Shown: positions 12,847 to 23,175 of the stretch, piece after piece
Layout of the letters: every line of letters starts with the position of its first letter
How positions within the stretch are numbered: position 1 is the first letter of the stretch
Assembly: GCA_027296055.1 (NCBI GenBank)
Contig: JAPUJT010000049.1
Coordinates: forward strand, 113,244 to 177,243
DNA from: Planctomycetota bacterium
GTDB taxonomy: Bacteria > Planctomycetota > JAPUJT01
Direction: 5' to 3'
DNA length: 64,000 nucleotides
Position numbers and translations under genes: made by a program
Notes under the pieces: model-generated
Told to the model about the DNA's origin: nothing
The model's input: the letters and a program-made list of their open reading frames with translations, nothing else
Database searches by the model: none

Positions 12847-15800
12847 CTAACCGGTTGCACGGGCCGACGGGCGGGCGAGGTCGGGCATGCTGAGCCAGGC
12901 CTCGCGGAAGATACGCGCGTAGTCGCGCACGGAGTCCTCGAAACTTTCGTGGATCTGGAGCACCTCCAGGCTGTGGGCGGCCATCTTGCGGCGGAGGGCG
13001 GAGTCTTCGACGAGCCTCCCGAGCTTCGCCGCGAGCGTCTTCGAATCCCCCGCCTTGTAGAAGAAGGCGTTCCCTCCATCCTGGACCTGCTCGCGAATTC
13101 CGAAAGCGGGGGTCGTCACGATCGGCAATCCGCACGCCATCGCCTCCTGGATCACCCGAGGGAAGCACTCGATACGAGAGGTGCAGACGAAGACGTCCGC
13201 GGCGGAATAGTAGACTCCGACGTCCGGGGTCTCGGCGATGATCTGTACCCGAGCGGATCGCGCCTTGCCGAGAGACCGCCTCGCGTCCTCCAGGGCCCGG
13301 CTGTATTCCCCGGGTCTGTCTCCCACGATGAAGCACCGTACCCGGCTCGATTTCCTTCGATCCAGGTAGGCCATCGCCCGGACCAGATCGATCTGGCCCT
13401 TCCGCTCACAAACAGTCCCCACGAGGAGGAGGACGATCTCATTGTCCTTGATCCCCAGTCGCTTCCGCGCGGCGTCGCGGGGCCAGCGGGCCATCTGACC
13501 CGAGAGCCTCCCGGGATCGAGGCCGTTGTGAACCGCGCCGAAATTGTGCCGTAGCATCAGCGGCTTGTAGAGGCAGCGAGTCGCGTCGGAACCGAAGACG
13601 ACCCGGTACGGGTAGGCGAAGCAACCTCTTACGCGTTCCGCGACATCGGCGCCGAGGTCCTTCAGTCTCAGGTGCCACGGCTCGCTCTCGTGAATCGACC
13701 AGACGGATGGAATGCCCGCCCTGCGAGCGGCCTCGACTTCCAGATAGCTCAGGATCGTGTTGGCATGGACCGCCTCGACGCGCCACTCCTTCAGGCGTCC
13801 GACCAATCTCCCGAGCGCGCGCCGGTAGGTCTCCGTGTCGGTGTCAGTCTGCATCGGATAGGGCGTGATGTGGACCCGGATCCCCTTCTTCTCGTAGGAG
13901 CGACGCAAAGGCCCATCCTTCGGGCTGCAGACTATCGGGTCGATCACCCCTCGCTCCTTCAGCGCGACGATGAGCTCGAACTGGATGAGGGGGGCGCCTT
14001 CCCAGTCCAGCCGGTGGCTGCAGGCGAGGAGCTTCAGCGGACCCAGATCGCCGGGGGCGATGGTCCTCGCCTCGATCTCGAATCGGTACTCATCCAGCGA
14101 GAGGTTCGGATTGTAGTACGGATCTACCCGGTGGCCGTGGCGGGTCCGATAGGCCGAGATCTCGGAGAGGCGGTCGGTGAAGCCCCGGGAGAGCCCCTCG
14201 TGATGGATCAGCTCGGCCGTCGGGACATAGACAGTCCTCAATCCCTCGTCATGGAGGCGGAGGCAGTAGTCCACGTCGTTGAAGGCGACGGCGAACGTCT
14301 CCCCATCGAATCCTCCCATCCGGAGGTAGAGCTCTCGTGGCGTGAGCATGCACGCGCCCGTCACCGCAAGATAGTTCCGGGAGATGCGCGCCTGGCACAT
14401 ATAGCCGGGCGCCGAGCCCTGCAAGAGCTGGAAGGCGTGTCCCACGCCTCCGGGGCTGAACCCGTGGACGACCCCCGCGTGCTGGACCCGGCCATCCGGA
14501 TAGATGAGCCTGGCGCCGACGGCGCCTACTCCTTCCATATTCAAGTAACCGACCATCTGGCTGAGCCATTCGGGGCTTCTTACCTCCGTGTCGTTGTTGA
14601 GCAAGAGCACGTAGTCGGCGTTCACCTTGCGGACCGCCTCGTTATTGATCGCCGCGAAGCTCCACTTGCCGTCCCGGTCGGGAATCCTGAAGACCTTGTG
14701 TGGAAGGTTCCGGAGATAGTCGAGCGTCTCAGGTTCATCGCTCTCATTGTCGATGACGAAGATCTCGTAATTTCGGTAGGCGGTCATCCGGATCGACTGG
14801 ATGCACTTGCGGAGGACTTCTACCTGATTGCGAGTCGGAATCAAGATGGCGACGCTGGGGCCCTCGTCGGGAAATTGCAACCGGTAAACACCCAGCCAGC
14901 GGTTCCTCGCCCAGTCGGGATGAATCGCCTTCGCCGAGATGCCTCTCCGCTGGAGGGCCTCCTGCAGCGCCGCCCGACCGGCCTGGATCCCGAACGGCTT
15001 CGCGCTGCCCGTCGCCGCCACGGAATCGGGAGCTGCCCGCCAGTGGTACAAGATGGCCGGAATGTGTCCCACATGCCGGGCCTGCTCGGTGGCGCGAAGC
15101 GCCAGGTCATAGTCCTGCGCCCCGTCGAACTCGGATCTCGCCCCGCCGATCTTCTCGAACAGAGCCCGCCGTATCACCAGGAGATGGGTCAGATACATGC
15201 AGGAGAGCAGATGCTCCGGTGACCAGTCGGGCTTGAACTGTGGATCGTATCGCCGACCGTCCATATCCACCTTGTCGTCGTCGGAATAGACCAGATCGGC
15301 CTCGGGATGTTCGCTGCAGTAAAGGACCACGCGCGCCAGCGCATCGACGGTCAGCTCGTCGTCGTGATCGAGAAAGACAAGGAGCTCTCCGCGTGCCAGC
15401 CTGGCCGCGGAGTTGGTGGCGGCGCTGATGTGCCCGTTTTTGGTCCGCTCCACGATCCGGATCCGGGAGTCCTTCGCTGCCCATCGATGCAGCGTGCTCA
15501 GTACCTTCGGATCGGTACTGGCATCGTCGGCCACGCAGAGTTCCCAGTGCGGATAGATCTGACGGACGACGCTGCGTATCGCGCGATCCAACATGCCGGT
15601 GGGCGTGTTGTAGACGGGCATCAGGACGCTCACGAGTGGGGGATCGGTGACGCGAGCGAGATCTTCGCGAAGCAGCCTCTCTCTCCGATCGGTCCAGGCG
15701 TTGACGGTGATCCACGCGTCATACGGATCCAGCCGTCGTCCGTCGCTGTCGATGGAAACGATTTCCCCCGACCAGGGCTTGCGGGTGCGCGGGGGAGACG

Positions 15801-18800
15801 CCAGGGTGAAGCTCTCCGTCTCGAGATCGAGGTTGGGATTGTAAGCGGGATCGTCGACGAGGAGGTCCCGCCACCGAACTTTCATGAAGTCGATGGATGC
15901 CTGCAGGCGGGATCGCCGCTCCGTCCCGAGGTCGTCCAGCCAGGGGTGACGGACCACTTCCGCATGAGGCGTCCAGACCACCCTTCGATTCTTCTCCCCG
16001 ATGCGCAAGCAGAGATCGATGTCACCCAGGCGCTCGGGGAACCGGGTCTCATCCAATCCCCCGACCGACTCGAAGACTTCCCGGCGAAGTACAAGACACA
16101 TCCCGGAGACGGCGGAGAAGTCTTGCACGAGAGTCGCCTGCCCCTGCGGGCCGGCGAAGTCTCCTGGCTGACCCTCACAGGCGTTGCCGGCGACACCATG
16201 GGGCCCCATCCCGAGGATGACACCCGCATGCCAGATCGATCCATCCGCGTTGTAGATCTTGGCCCCCACGGCTCCAATCTCCGGGCGGAGCGCGTGGATC
16301 ACCATCTCGTGCAGCCAGTCGGGGCTCTTGATTTCGATCCCGCTCCCTACGAAACCTATCAGCTCGCCCCGGGATTTTCCCACGGCATGATTTCGCATCG
16401 CCGAGCGATTGAATTCTTTATCGGATTCTTTTTCGTATCGGATGACGGTGAGACTCTCTTGCCGGGAAAACTCCTCCAGCACCCTTTCCGTGGGGGAGTC
16501 GATTGTCCCACGGCTCACCAGGATCAGATCGTAGCTCGGGTAGCGGGTCTTCTGCAGAATCGTCTCCACGCTCCGCCGCAGTTGCTCGTCTGAACCCTCG
16601 GCAATCATGACGAGGGACACTCGAGGCGGTGGCTCTGGCAAGGAAAGCCGCGAAGAGTCATCAAGGATCTGTCCGGGGCCGGTCCTGGCCGCGATCCCCT
16701 CGCCATTGCGACTGTCTTCCAGGTTCCTCGGAGTCGATGCGCCCCCCGCTGCGCCAGATTGCGCGTGGTACAGGATATGGGGGATGTGTCTGATCCTCGA
16801 TGAGGGGAGTCCCCGAGAGATCTGAAGGGCGGAGGCCTCCACACCGGAGTTCTCGGCGAGATCGGCTCGATAGACCATCAGGTGATCGACATAGCTGTGG
16901 GAGCGGAGGAGATCCGGATTCCAGTCGGGCTTGAAGTACGGATCGTCTCGCCGTCCCCTGGAGTCGATCCGATCCTCGTCCGAATAGATCAGCCCGGCAT
17001 CGGGATGGGAGCCGATTTCCACCGCGACCATGTAGAGGGCGTGCTCGGCCAGGACGTCACCCGCCTCGACTCGTGCCACGAATTCGCCTTCCGGACGGGC
17101 GGTAACTCTCACGCGCCCGTCCTCGCGGTGGTGCTCCTCCACGACAGCGCGCACACGTGCGGAGGCGCCGGTCACGCACAGCTCCCAGTTGGGGTAGAGC
17201 TGTCTGGAGACGGACTCCAGCGTGCGACGGCACTCCCGCCGCGTCGCTCCGGCGGCCGGCAGCAAGACCGAGATCAGGGGCTTGGGCGCCAGCCGCTTGA
17301 TGTGCTCCCGGATCCTCATCCGATCCGCGTTGCTCAGCTCGTCGTGAGCTTCCATCCAGCGATCGTAGTCCGATAGGCGACTGCGGCGGCTCGTCTTCGC
17401 CTCCCGAAGCATCCAGTGCTTGAAAGTCGAGAAACCATCCCGCCGGGCGACACGGAGGCCTCTGAATGCCAGCCGCATGATTTTCAGCGGGTGAAATCGC
17501 AATCCGGTTGCTGTCTCCCAGGCGAGGAGAAAGGCAAGCGGGATCTGCCCGAGCTCACGGATCTTGATCTTTCCGAGCCGGAAGCGGCCGGGGCAGTCCA
17601 TCGGGTCCAGTCGGAGGCGGTGGACCTGATCCGGGAGGTGCACGAACAGCTTCGATCTTCCCGTCCGGAGAGGGGGGAGGATGGGTCGATCAACCTCGGA
17701 GAGCCCGTGGCCGCTGTCGATGTATAGCGTAGGCTCCAGTCGCCCTTCGTCGCATTCCGCACCGTACGAGATCGTCACCCACCCGGAAGGCAGGCGACCA
17801 CGAGATGAGTGCAAGTCGAACTGTGGGTCGCCGCCCGTGCTCCGGAACTGTTTCCCTTCCCGGACGAGCTGGCTTACTGGTTCAGGATGCATCCGGTGGA
17901 GTCGCGAGCGGAAGAGCCAGGAGATACGAGTCTTCAGGATGCTCATCCAGCCGGGGAAGAAGGTGCGCCGGCGTGAACGCAACGATCCGAGCAGCTCCGA
18001 GGTGATGCCGGCGACCTGCTCCAGTCGCTGGGAGACGTTTTCCAGGTCCGCCCTCAATTCCTCGAGGGCCGCCTCCTGCTTCTGCGACATCTCCCTGATG
18101 TCGGCCGACAGCGCCGCCCTCTCCTGGGCCTCACCCAGCTCCTCGAGCGTCTCTCGCTGGAGCCGCATCTCATCAAGGAGATCCCGAGAGTCCTTCTGCT
18201 TGGCGAGGACCTCCTTCATCGGTTTCCCGCTGGCGATCTCATCGCCGATCGATTCGACGCGCCCCAGGATCTCCTCGAGCCGCGACATCGGGACCGCCTC
18301 GGGTGTCCGGTCCATGTCGAAGCACTTACGAACACGCGATATGCTCCTTGCGCGTGGGGCCGCGACTACGAAGTGGCGGTAGACCGGCTCGACCCAGTCG
18401 CCGGAGTAAACCGCCGTGTTGTAGATCTCGTCCACCGTCGATCGGAGGGATTCGATCTCGGCGTTGCAGTCGCCCAGGGTTGTCCGCATCAGCCTGGCCC
18501 ACAAACGCAGGTTTCCGTGGGGCCAGATCTGCACGTGCCAGCCGGCCGACTTCAGCTTTTGAACCGTTTCTTCGAGGTCAGGAAGGACGCCAGGCGGATG
18601 CTCGACGAGCCATGGGTGGTCATTCCCACGGACATCGCGCAAGAGGGCGTTGAGTCGGGTCTGTTCCTGAACTACTTCGGGCGAATCGAAGGGGGCGCCG
18701 ATCACGATGCCGGTGCTCGATACTCGCATCATCTCATCCAGGAACGCATCGCGTTGGTCGACCGGGACATGCTGGAGGGCGTCCAGGGAGAGGGACACAT

Positions 18801-19083
18801 CGACCGCCCCTTTGAGGAACGAGACCTGGGTGGCATCACAGTTGACGAGTCGCTTCGAGTCAGCGATTGATCGAGGCGTCTCGCTGCCTACATAGACAAT
18901 GAAATCGTCCGGCAGGAATTTTTCGAGGTTCCCCAGGTTCCGATGTTCGGAGGCACCGACCTCCAGCAGCCTGAGTCCCTTCTTGCGACCCCTCCAGGCA
19001 CCAATGATGGCCGCCGCGAAGGCGTACCGTTGGTACTGGTCAAACGGCAACCGCAGAGTGGATGAGTTCGAGTTTCTCGACAT
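12847..19083 (-). CDS. Giant multi-module glycosyltransferase: SAM-methyltransferase-like + coiled coil + four GT2-type modules + GT4
   Basis: Methyltransferase-like N-terminus; GT2 modules at PLISVLLPAAG, PPRVSLVMIAEG, PLVSVLMPVYN, PSVAILIPTRN; C-terminal GT4 (VLLLVGTVCERKGQIDLVRAM...AMACGLPIVTTPAFGIREQV). Confidence 0.9.
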   Translation of the reverse strand: MSRNSNSSTLRLPFDQYQRYAFAAAIIGAWRGRKKGLRLLEVGASEHRNLGNLEKFLPDDFIVYVGSETPRSIADSKRLVNCDATQVSFLKGAVDVSLSLDALQHVPVDQRDAFLDEMMRVSSTGIVIGAPFDSPEVVQEQTRLNALLRDVRGNDHPWLVEHPPGVLPDLEETVQKLKSAGWHVQIWPHGNLRLWARLMRTTLGDCNAEIESLRSTVDEIYNTAVYSGDWVEPVYRHFVVAAPRARSISRVRKCFDMDRTPEAVPMSRLEEILGRVESIGDEIASGKPMKEVLAKQKDSRDLLDEMRLQRETLEELGEAQERAALSADIREMSQKQEAALEELRADLENVSQRLEQVAGITSELLGSLRSRRRTFFPGWMSILKTRISWLFRSRLHRMHPEPVSQLVREGKQFRSTGGDPQFDLHSSRGRLPSGWVTISYGAECDEGRLEPTLYIDSGHGLSEVDRPILPPLRTGRSKLFVHLPDQVHRLRLDPMDCPGRFRLGKIKIRELGQIPLAFLLAWETATGLRFHPLKIMRLAFRGLRVARRDGFSTFKHWMLREAKTSRRSRLSDYDRWMEAHDELSNADRMRIREHIKRLAPKPLISVLLPAAGATRRECRRTLESVSRQLYPNWELCVTGASARVRAVVEEHHREDGRVRVTARPEGEFVARVEAGDVLAEHALYMVAVEIGSHPDAGLIYSDEDRIDSRGRRDDPYFKPDWNPDLLRSHSYVDHLMVYRADLAENSGVEASALQISRGLPSSRIRHIPHILYHAQSGAAGGASTPRNLEDSRNGEGIAARTGPGQILDDSSRLSLPEPPPRVSLVMIAEGSDEQLRRSVETILQKTRYPSYDLILVSRGTIDSPTERVLEEFSRQESLTVIRYEKESDKEFNRSAMRNHAVGKSRGELIGFVGSGIEIKSPDWLHEMVIHALRPEIGAVGAKIYNADGSIWHAGVILGMGPHGVAGNACEGQPGDFAGPQGQATLVQDFSAVSGMCLVLRREVFESVGGLDETRFPERLGDIDLCLRIGEKNRRVVWTPHAEVVRHPWLDDLGTERRSRLQASIDFMKVRWRDLLVDDPAYNPNLDLETESFTLASPPRTRKPWSGEIVSIDSDGRRLDPYDAWITVNAWTDRRERLLREDLARVTDPPLVSVLMPVYNTPTGMLDRAIRSVVRQIYPHWELCVADDASTDPKVLSTLHRWAAKDSRIRIVERTKNGHISAATNSAARLARGELLVFLDHDDELTVDALARVVLYCSEHPEADLVYSDDDKVDMDGRRYDPQFKPDWSPEHLLSCMYLTHLLVIRRALFEKIGGARSEFDGAQDYDLALRATEQARHVGHIPAILYHWRAAPDSVAATGSAKPFGIQAGRAALQEALQRRGISAKAIHPDWARNRWLGVYRLQFPDEGPSVAILIPTRNQVEVLRKCIQSIRMTAYRNYEIFVIDNESDEPETLDYLRNLPHKVFRIPDRDGKWSFAAINNEAVRKVNADYVLLLNNDTEVRSPEWLSQMVGYLNMEGVGAVGARLIYPDGRVQHAGVVHGFSPGGVGHAFQLLQGSAPGYMCQARISRNYLAVTGACMLTPRELYLRMGGFDGETFAVAFNDVDYCLRLHDEGLRTVYVPTAELIHHEGLSRGFTDRLSEISAYRTRHGHRVDPYYNPNLSLDEYRFEIEARTIAPGDLGPLKLLACSHRLDWEGAPLIQFELIVALKERGVIDPIVCSPKDGPLRRSYEKKGIRVHITPYPMQTDTDTETYRRALGRLVGRLKEWRVEAVHANTILSYLEVEAARRAGIPSVWSIHESEPWHLRLKDLGADVAERVRGCFAYPYRVVFGSDATRCLYKPLMLRHNFGAVHNGLDPGRLSGQMARWPRDAARKRLGIKDNEIVLLLVGTVCERKGQIDLVRAMAYLDRRKSSRVRCFIVGDRPGEYSRALEDARRSLGKARSARVQIIAETPDVGVYYSAADVFVCTSRIECFPRVIQEAMACGLPIVTTPAFGIREQVQDGGNAFFYKAGDSKTLAAKLGRLVEDSALRRKMAAHSLEVLQIHESFEDSVRDYARIFREAWLSMPDLARPSARATG

Positions 19084-20211: not shown

Positions 20212-21582
20212 ATGAAATCCGTCAAGAGAGTGCTCTTCCTCACGCCCAGCGTCGTGGGCCGGGAAATGTCGGCGGTGGGAATGCGCCACTTCGAACTGGC
20301 CCGCGCCCTCTCGACCCATCACGAAGTCACACTCGCCGTCTCCCGACTCGAAGGCGAGCCGCCACCGGGCGTCAAGGTCGTCCCGATCGGTACGGAGGCG
20401 GAACTCTCACGTTTGGCGAAATTGTGTGACGTCCTCATCGTGCAGGGGGATCTGCTGCGGCGATACCCTGGCTTTCAGCCGCCCGATGTTCCACTCGTCG
20501 TCGACATGGCGTTTCCCACCCTGCTGGAAGGACTGGAGCGCCCGTTGAATCGAAACGGGAATGAGCGGGGCGCTGACTCACATCGGGACATGATCGAGTA
20601 CGAAGGATTCCTGAGCACGGTGAACCACCTCCTTCGGATCGGAGACTTCTTCCTCTGCGCTTCCGAGCGACAGCGTGACCTTGTCCTGGGGATGCTGCTG
20701 ACATTGAATCGTCTCAACCCGAGGACCCATCGAGACGATCCCTCCTTCGACGGACTCGTCGTCGTCGTTCCGAACGGTGTGCCCGACGAGGAGCCCCGGT
20801 CGGGAGAGAAGGGCCTCCGCGAGGGAGTAAAGGGGATTCGCCCGCGAGACACTCTTCTCTACTGGGGTGGGGGAATCTGGCCGTGGCTCGATCCCGTGAT
20901 CCTCGTGGAGGCGATGGCTGAGATCCGCAAGCAAAGGAGCGATATAAAGCTGTTCTTCGCCGGAACGGATCACCCTTCTCCGGACCGTTCTCTTGCCGAG
21001 ACGGCCAGGCGCACTCGCCAGAAGGCGCGCGAAGCGGGACTCGAGGGCAATTGCATATACTTCGCGAACTGGGTGCCGTATCAGGAAAGAGGATCGTTCC
21101 TGCTCGATGCCGACATAGGCGTGTCGGCCCACCGCGCCACCGTGGAGACGCGCTTCGCCCTGAGGATGAGGGTCATGGATTACCTCTGGGCGGGGCTCCC
21201 GATCATCACCACGGAGGGAGATGAGACGGCGCGTCTCGTGCGAGAGGAGAGGATTGGCGAAGTGGTCGCCCCCGGGGATGTGAAGGGATGGGTGAGCGCG
21301 ATACTGCGACTCGCCGGCAGCACCCGGATGAGACGGTCGTATGGCGATCGCTCGAGGCAGGTGGGGTTTGGCTACCGCTGGAGTCGGGTCGTCTCTCCCC
21401 TCGCCGATTTCTGTCGGTCTCCGGCGCGGGCAGGTGACCATCGCGGCGTCGCGAACAGGAGGGGGCTGCTGGGGGAGAAGATCCGTCGCTACGGAAGGAG
21501 GACCCTCCAGCTTGTCGCGGAAGGAAAGTTCCGCGACCTCCTTCGCGGGGTTCGCTGGAAAATACGGTCGAGAGATTGGTAG
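20212..21582 (+). CDS. Glycosyltransferase, GT4/GT1-like
   Basis: RVLFLTPSVVGREMSAVGMRHFELARAL; IGVSAHRATVETRFALRMRVMDYLWAGLPIITTEGDETARLV. Confidence 0.8.
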   Translation: MKSVKRVLFLTPSVVGREMSAVGMRHFELARALSTHHEVTLAVSRLEGEPPPGVKVVPIGTEAELSRLAKLCDVLIVQGDLLRRYPGFQPPDVPLVVDMAFPTLLEGLERPLNRNGNERGADSHRDMIEYEGFLSTVNHLLRIGDFFLCASERQRDLVLGMLLTLNRLNPRTHRDDPSFDGLVVVVPNGVPDEEPRSGEKGLREGVKGIRPRDTLLYWGGGIWPWLDPVILVEAMAEIRKQRSDIKLFFAGTDHPSPDRSLAETARRTRQKAREAGLEGNCIYFANWVPYQERGSFLLDADIGVSAHRATVETRFALRMRVMDYLWAGLPIITTEGDETARLVREERIGEVVAPGDVKGWVSAILRLAGSTRMRRSYGDRSRQVGFGYRWSRVVSPLADFCRSPARAGDHRGVANRRGLLGEKIRRYGRRTLQLVAEGKFRDLLRGVRWKIRSRDW

Positions 21583-21589
21583 GAAGACT

Positions 21590-22387
21590 TTGATCTCAGG
21601 AATCGTCGAGATCGTTCGCTACCGGGAGCTGGTGCTCAGCCTGATCCGTCGAGATCTAAAACGGCGGTACAAGGGCTCGATCCTCGGTTTCCTCTGGTAC
21701 CTGGTGAACCCACTACTGATCATGGGAATCCTCTGGGTCGTGTTCGGCTTCTTCTTCTCCCGCATGGGCGGAGTGGAGGCCTACGCCGTCTATCTGCTCT
21801 CCGCCCTCGTCGCGTGGAACTTTTTCACGCAGTCGGTGCTCACCTCTGCCACGAATCTTGCAACCTCCGGCGGGCTGATCCGAAGGGTCTACGTGCCCAA
21901 GGCGGTGTTCCCGCTCGCCTCGATAGGCGGAAGCGCGGTCAACTTCGTCCTCTCCCTGATACCCCTTTCTTTCGTGATCTGGGCGTATCAGAGACCGGTC
22001 GGGTGGTCACTGCTCTACTTTCCTGTCGGCCTTCTCTTCCTTCTCGCCTTCAGCACTGGCATGGCCCTCCTGATCTCGAGCATCAACGTATTCTTCCGTG
22101 ACGTTCAGCACATCGCCGAAGTCGTCTTTCTCGCCTGGTTCTACGCAACCCCGGTTATCTGGCCCGTCGGGATGCTGGAGGGACTCGACGTACCTGCCTA
22201 CATGACGGTTCTCCTCGACTGGAACCCGATGGCGGCACTGATCGAGTGCCTCCGCGCTCCGATCTATTCAGGGACGATGCCGAGCGCGCATGCCTTGAAC
22301 CTTGCGGGTGCTTCTGCCCTGGGTCTTCTCCTCGTGGGGATGGCCGTCTTTCGCAGGCTGGAATCGCGCTTTATCTATCACCTGTGA
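21590..22387 (+). CDS. wzm: ABC-2 type polysaccharide exporter permease (Wzm-like)
   Basis: LVLSLIRRDLKRRYKGSILGFLWYLVNPLLIMGILWVVFGFFF; TTG start at 21590 proposed from homology position; TGA overlaps the next GTG. Confidence 0.85.
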   Translation: MISGIVEIVRYRELVLSLIRRDLKRRYKGSILGFLWYLVNPLLIMGILWVVFGFFFSRMGGVEAYAVYLLSALVAWNFFTQSVLTSATNLATSGGLIRRVYVPKAVFPLASIGGSAVNFVLSLIPLSFVIWAYQRPVGWSLLYFPVGLLFLLAFSTGMALLISSINVFFRDVQHIAEVVFLAWFYATPVIWPVGMLEGLDVPAYMTVLLDWNPMAALIECLRAPIYSGTMPSAHALNLAGASALGLLLVGMAVFRRLESRFIYHL

Positions 22388-23175
22388 CGGGAATCGATGC
22401 GGACGTGAACGATAACCTGGCCGTCGAACTGAAGGACGTCGGGGTGCGTTATCGCCTCTCTCACGAGCGGGCCACCACGCTCAAGGAGACGGTGATCAAC
22501 TTCCTTCTGGGACGGCGCTACGTCTCCGAAGACCTGTGGGCTCTCCGTAACGTGAACCTCGAGATCGAGAAGGGCACCTGCGTCGGAGTGATCGGCCGGA
22601 ACGGCTGCGGAAAGAGCACCCTACTCCAGGTCGTGGCCAAGGTCATCGGCCCCACCGAGGGCGAGGTCTCCGTGAGAGGGGACATCTCGTCCCTCCTTCA
22701 GCTCGGAGCCGGTTTCGATCCGGAGTTGAGCGGGACGGACAACGTCTTCCTTAGCGGGTCTCTTCAGGGACTCTCTCGGCGCGCGATCCACGACCGCTAC
22801 CCGGAGATCGTGGAGTTCTCCGGGCTGGGTAGCTTCATCGACGTTCCGGTGAAGAACTTCTCCGCCGGCATGTACGTACGCCTCGGATTCTCCATCGCGA
22901 TCACCGTCGATCCGGACGTCCTGCTCATCGACGAGGCCCTCGCCGTCGGAGACGAGGCCTTTCAGCAGAAATGCCTGGAGAAGATCCGGGCGTTCCGGGA
23001 CAGTGGAAAGACACTCCTGATCGTCTCCCACGGGCTCGACCTCCTCGCCACCCTCTGCGACCGGGTGGTCCTGCTGGACCGGGGGCAGATCGTCTCGACG
23101 GGCGAGCCCCGGAGTATCATCGATCAATATCATCAAATGATTGCTGCCGCCGACGGGGTCGACGTGAGCTCGTGA
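22384..23175 (+). CDS. wzt: ABC transporter ATP-binding subunit (Wzt-like, short form)
   Basis: Walker A GRNGCGKSTLL, signature FSAGMYVRLGFSIA, Walker B VLLIDEALAVGDEAF; GTG start 22384 overlaps the wzm stop. Confidence 0.9.
   Translation: MTGIDADVNDNLAVELKDVGVRYRLSHERATTLKETVINFLLGRRYVSEDLWALRNVNLEIEKGTCVGVIGRNGCGKSTLLQVVAKVIGPTEGEVSVRGDISSLLQLGAGFDPELSGTDNVFLSGSLQGLSRRAIHDRYPEIVEFSGLGSFIDVPVKNFSAGMYVRLGFSIAITVDPDVLLIDEALAVGDEAFQQKCLEKIRAFRDSGKTLLIVSHGLDLLATLCDRVVLLDRGQIVSTGEPRSIIDQYHQMIAAADGVDVSS

Follow-up and report, generated by a model that had tools for sequence, protein, structure and literature searches.

A probable pseudo-glycosyltransferase pair beside an intact GT2 pair in a predicted surface-polysaccharide protein of a Planctomycetota bacterium

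Introduction

Two GT-A domains of family GT2 are combined in one chain in K4 chondroitin polymerase (K4CP, 2z86) and in heparosan synthase 2 (PmHS2, 8vh8), and both domains are active in each of these enzymes. Tandem GT2 pairs are also found in proteins that are encoded in surface-polysaccharide clusters and annotated as glycosyltransferase family 2; we take them to resemble the RfbC-type proteins of Myxococcus. In these proteins an A module is followed by a B module, and many carry a leader domain in front of the pair.

The pseudo-glycosyltransferase domains that we found documented are those of animals. COSMC, a GT31 pseudo-glycosyltransferase, has lost both the DxD and the xED motif and serves an active relative as scaffold and chaperone (PMC7185993). 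In the bi-domain exostosin EXTL3, the GT47 domain has probably lost its activity yet is retained (PMC9178029). We found no precedent for dead domains in bacterial O-antigen synthases in the open-licence literature, which is weak evidence of absence. Here, we describe a protein with two tandem GT2 pairs that is encoded in a window of 64,000 nucleotides (the whole stretch of DNA analysed) from a Planctomycetota bacterium.

Results

The protein comprises 2078 amino acids (aa) and is encoded by a single open reading frame (12847..19083 (-), based on the ORF call and Pfam domains). It begins with a methyltransferase-like domain (aa 1-246, 18346..19083 (-)), for which the PF08241 match (E 8e-4) lies below the cut-off and which has homologues in 21 other genomes. 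This is followed by a probable coiled coil, a heptad-like charged segment read off the sequence alone (aa 268-366, 17986..18282 (-)), and by a leader domain (aa 396-601, 17281..17898 (-)) without Pfam match. According to Pfam, this one frame also encodes four GT2 modules, with a GT4 at the C-terminus. The modules alternate between type A and type B: M1 (A, aa 602-819, 16627..17280 (-)), M2 (B, aa 820-1100, 15784..16626 (-)), M3 (A, aa 1149-1408, 14860..15639 (-); PF00535, alignment to K4CP with E 7e-21) and M4 (B, aa 1409-1682, 14038..14859 (-); PF13641, best stretch 1409-1629). The GT4 is a GT-B glycosyltransferase (aa 1683-2067, 12883..14037 (-); PF00534, E 4e-31).

The SAM motif of the methyltransferase-like domain looks degenerate when aligned with its homologues. 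VGASEHRN with an insertion replaces the family motif VGGRT, the aspartate of LVD is changed to glycine and LEH to LQH.

The neighbourhood of the gene contains a Wzm-like ABC-2 permease (21341..22387 (+); PF01061, partial score for NF050109), the true start of which is probably further downstream, a Wzt/TagH-like ABC ATPase (22246..23175 (+); PF00005, partial scores for NF010065, NF010066 and NF050108), several GT4s and methyltransferases. A permease and an ATPase beside glycosyltransferase genes are the arrangement of a Wzm/Wzt ABC-dependent cluster, with NCBIfam matches below the equivalog cut-offs. An Rfam search gave no match. A homologue of the protein, L127 (open frame of 1421 aa), is encoded in G004, a genome of the same phylum, and consists of methyltransferase-like domain, A, B and GT4, with no dead pair. 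In G004, similar transporter genes lie near L127, and beside them a pair with a dead A module is encoded in a gene of its own (L003; L152:5395-7332 (+)).

To characterise the modules, we aligned M1 to M4 with 87 related A-B pairs from named GTDB genomes and from the phylum of the window. M1-M2 fit the tandem GT2 pair family in their A-B order and in the motifs YSDEDKID, FKPDWN, QHAGV (WHAGV in M2) and NPNL. Every motif quoted in the first-pass annotation was found on the minus strand within the frame, namely CVTGASARV (17152-17178), RVEAGDVL (17050-17073) and YSDEDRIDS (16960-16986) in M1 and LVSRGTIDS (16495-16521), FVGSGIEI (16330-16353) and HAGVILGMG (16204-16230) in M2. The stretch flagged in that annotation (15830-17290) takes in M1 and the larger part of M2. 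M3 carries VADDAST, FLDHDDEL and AQDYDLALR, and M4 carries VIDNESDEP, LLNNDTEV and FNDVDYCLR. In the reference pairs, module A conserves DD in 83/87, the first D of DxD in 84/87 and the xED aspartate in 84/87, and the D of NND in module B is conserved in 85/87.

Neither M1 nor M2 has the nucleotide-binding aspartate (DDxS/VDN) or the DxD-type metal ligand of a competent GT2. M1 has GASA in place of DDxS, EAGD in place of DxD and a gap at the xED aspartate. In-frame deletions have removed the NGHIS...NSA helix (donor helix) as well as GG.. and QDYDL (xED helix), while LYH has retained its histidine and DxDD its final D. In M2, VDN is changed to VSR and NND to GSG, and HHES..RG is gone. At the site of the catalytic base (xED), however, M2 retains the two aspartates of ND-x-D, which reads GDIDLC. 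Furthermore, M2 has gained three arginines at donor-site positions (VDN to VSR; FNYSAxNN to FNRSAMRN). Taken alone, M1 scores 21.4 bits against PF00535 compared to a curated cut-off of 23.3, and M2 scores 30.3.

We then counted residues in family columns with at least 90% conservation across thinned canonical pairs. M1 kept 6/27 motif residues versus 28/35 other residues (Fisher p = 8e-6) and M2 kept 4/16 versus 30/40 (Fisher p = 8e-4). The motif residues of the second pair are almost complete (M3 27/27, M4 15/16), in line with its earlier description as intact. The loss in M1 and M2 is concentrated at active-site columns, beyond what is expected by chance. The first-pass annotation had proposed that M1-M2 lost their sugar-nucleotide and metal ligands with the rest of the domain conserved, and the alignment with the 87 pairs and the confident predicted fold described below bear this out. 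Its statement that the motifs were replaced holds for DDxS/VDN and DxD/NND in M1 and M2, but not for the surviving xED aspartates of M2.

Sequence searches of the PDB with M1-M2 gave only matches with E>=0.08, so that the structural comparison depends on a predicted model. The AlphaFold2 model of M1-M2, built with 36 aligned sequences, shows a GT-A fold (pLDDT 86.2, pTM 0.86), and that of M3-M4 reached a pLDDT of 91.3 and a pTM of 0.90. The two helices that bear the deleted motifs (donor helix and xED helix) are absent from the M1 model. Foldseek ranked PmHS2 and K4CP at the top for both pair models.

We inferred a B-only tree with masked motif columns and an A+B tree with the catalytic motif columns removed; both contain long branches, and their bootstrap was not fully settled. 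In the B-only tree, M2 is sister to the B module of L031, which comes from a metagenome-assembled genome assigned to Myxococcota (support 95/94), a grouping that the A+B tree did not recover. This B module is dead as well (VVTDQV, LLSSGLKV) and has none of the donor-site arginines of M2; the A module of L031 is intact. Since M2 has a dead module as its nearest relative, a recent decay of M2 appears less plausible, and as the A module of L031 is intact, the death of M1 could be of later date. Most simply, B probably died first and was followed by A; two separate losses of B, in M2 and in L031, are possible.

The main doubt about a dead pair concerns M2, which could retain activity in view of its xED aspartates and its new arginines. 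M2 would then transfer sugar as a GT-A enzyme that needs no metal, with basic residues in the place of the ion and the xED aspartate as base, and M1 alone would be dead. Metal-independent GT-A enzymes that function without DxD are known from GT14 and bacterial GT6 (PMC7185993). However, M2 has lost the uridine aspartate together with the NND triplet and HHES..RG, and its dead sister in L031 has no such arginines. We regard an active M2 as unlikely.

A second alternative, to which we give the same low weight, is recent neutral decay, in which the block would be redundant, functionless and heading for loss. This would agree with L127, which does without either module, with the intact counterpart of M1 in L031, which indicates that the death of M1 may be recent, and with the degenerate appearance of the methyltransferase-like domain in the same protein. 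It is at odds with a frame that is open across 2078 codons, with the retention of most conserved non-catalytic residues in M1 and M2, with the confident predicted fold and with a dead B module that is common to the distant relative L031.

Among 103 pairs examined, which were picked by similarity to M1-M2 so that the counts are not frequencies, nine have a clearly dead A module (M1 included) and three a dead B module (M2 included). Both modules are dead in M1-M2 only. The death of a single module recurs in the family: on a 47-row tree, the fewest changes needed were six for the deaths of A and three for those of B. In L084, L085, L003, L116, L117, L120, L123 and L128, which belong to several lineages, A is dead or largely missing and B intact; the reverse, an intact A and a dead B, was observed in L031:3937-4764 (+) (LLSSGLKV) and L075:4929-5750 (-) (FLDAGLKP). 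L065 and L091 (+ strand) from Opitutales/Opitutia contain two A-B pairs per chain, whose four modules all scored intact.

No orthologue with this double-dead pair was found among 392 genomes from the phylum. The window's own class is represented by one genome, the class of G004 by two, that of G032 by two and that of G281 by 20. The double-dead block is known from one genome, the only one that represents its class. A plasmid search with M1 gave 55 records, all under 60% identity.

With regard to the origin of the dead pair, L127 aligns to residues 4-241 (34% identity) and 1121-2067 (41%) of the protein. M3-M4 group with the L127 pair in the A+B tree (support 100/99). The leader domain matches the segment that precedes A in L034 from Anaeromyxobacter (93.8 bits, phmmer) and in L033 from Methylothermaceae (66 bits). 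Leader domains of this type precede A-B pairs in Myxococcota and Proteobacteria and are a feature of a subset of the pair family. Together, the absence of the dead block from L127, the grouping of M3-M4 with the L127 pair and the leader match suggest that a complete foreign unit of leader, A and B (about aa 396-1110) was most likely inserted after the probable coiled coil and ahead of the live pair. We favour an insertion in the lineage of the window over a loss in that of L127, although this preference is based on one block-free homologue, L127, with 34-41% identity. Even if L127 had lost such a unit, two separate pairs would still be required.

The first-pass annotation had instead explained the first pair as a tandem duplication of the neighbouring one, followed by motif loss. 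The identical A-B order, the common conserved motifs and an identity of 36% would fit this explanation. When M1-M2 and M3-M4 were constrained into one clade, however, the log-likelihood was 49.7 lower (p-AU 0.0089). As M3-M4 are closer to the L127 pair and the leader travels with the block, a duplication of M3-M4 is very improbable, and we discarded it based on the tree, the AU test and the architecture of L127.

Translation of the three coding-strand frames at five lesions gave only stops or unrelated peptides without the motifs in the other two frames; a compensated frameshift is thus not the cause at these sites. An assembly or sequencing artefact, whether through a chimeric contig or through errors at the motif sites, could be suspected in a draft genome of 206 contigs with 5.6% contamination and a single copy of the block, but is equally far-fetched, given that the gene shows no stop or frameshift and an even G+C content at the three codon positions along its whole length, dead block included, and that a similar lesion occurs in an independently assembled B module.

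Discussion

Based on sequence, predicted fold and analogy, M1-M2 are probably a pseudo-glycosyltransferase pair, an inserted unit with a non-catalytic role beside the live M3-M4-GT4 part. The protein would build a cell-surface polysaccharide that is probably exported by the nearby Wzm/Wzt-type ABC transporter. Judged from the intact motifs of M3-M4 and from what is known of the family, catalysis would be performed by the live GT2 pair together with the C-terminal GT4, and both GT-A domains of M1-M2 appear to have lost glycosyl transfer. By analogy with COSMC and the GT47 domain of EXTL3, M1-M2 may serve as scaffold or in acceptor/carbohydrate binding and would most likely hold the growing chain or acceptor end beside M3-M4-GT4; alternatively, they could act as a structural spacer or interaction surface. 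It may further be speculated, very tentatively, that pairs of this family repeatedly turn one or both GT2 members into chain holders for live domains, and that the foreign pair inserted here became a chain-holding or length-setting unit.

The closest relatives of M1-M2 are the tandem GT2 pair proteins, which have the same order of A and B, share YSDEDKID, FKPDWNP, QHAGV and NPNL and are 33-46% identical over the aligned rows. Unlike in these proteins, both active sites of M1-M2 are erased, and the pair resides inside a larger protein that also contains a live pair and a GT4. K4CP and PmHS2, the best structural matches of both window pairs, likewise combine two GT-A GT2 domains per chain, but their identity to the window pairs is only 10-16%, and M1-M2 are without the motifs. 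COSMC resembles M1-M2 in the retention of a GT-A domain without DxD, but it is a eukaryotic protein in its own right and belongs to another family. Moreover, xED aspartates persist in M2, and a role of M1-M2 like that of the chaperone COSMC is putative. In EXTL3, as in the window protein, a probably inactive glycosyltransferase domain resides beside an active one in the same chain; EXTL3 differs in being an animal protein of GT47/GT64 with a single inactive domain. If M1-M2 are indeed non-catalytic, counts of GT2 domains would overestimate the number of sugars added by a synthase. A bacterial pair family with separate deaths of A and B would lend itself to the question of why dead glycosyltransferase domains are kept in polysaccharide assembly.
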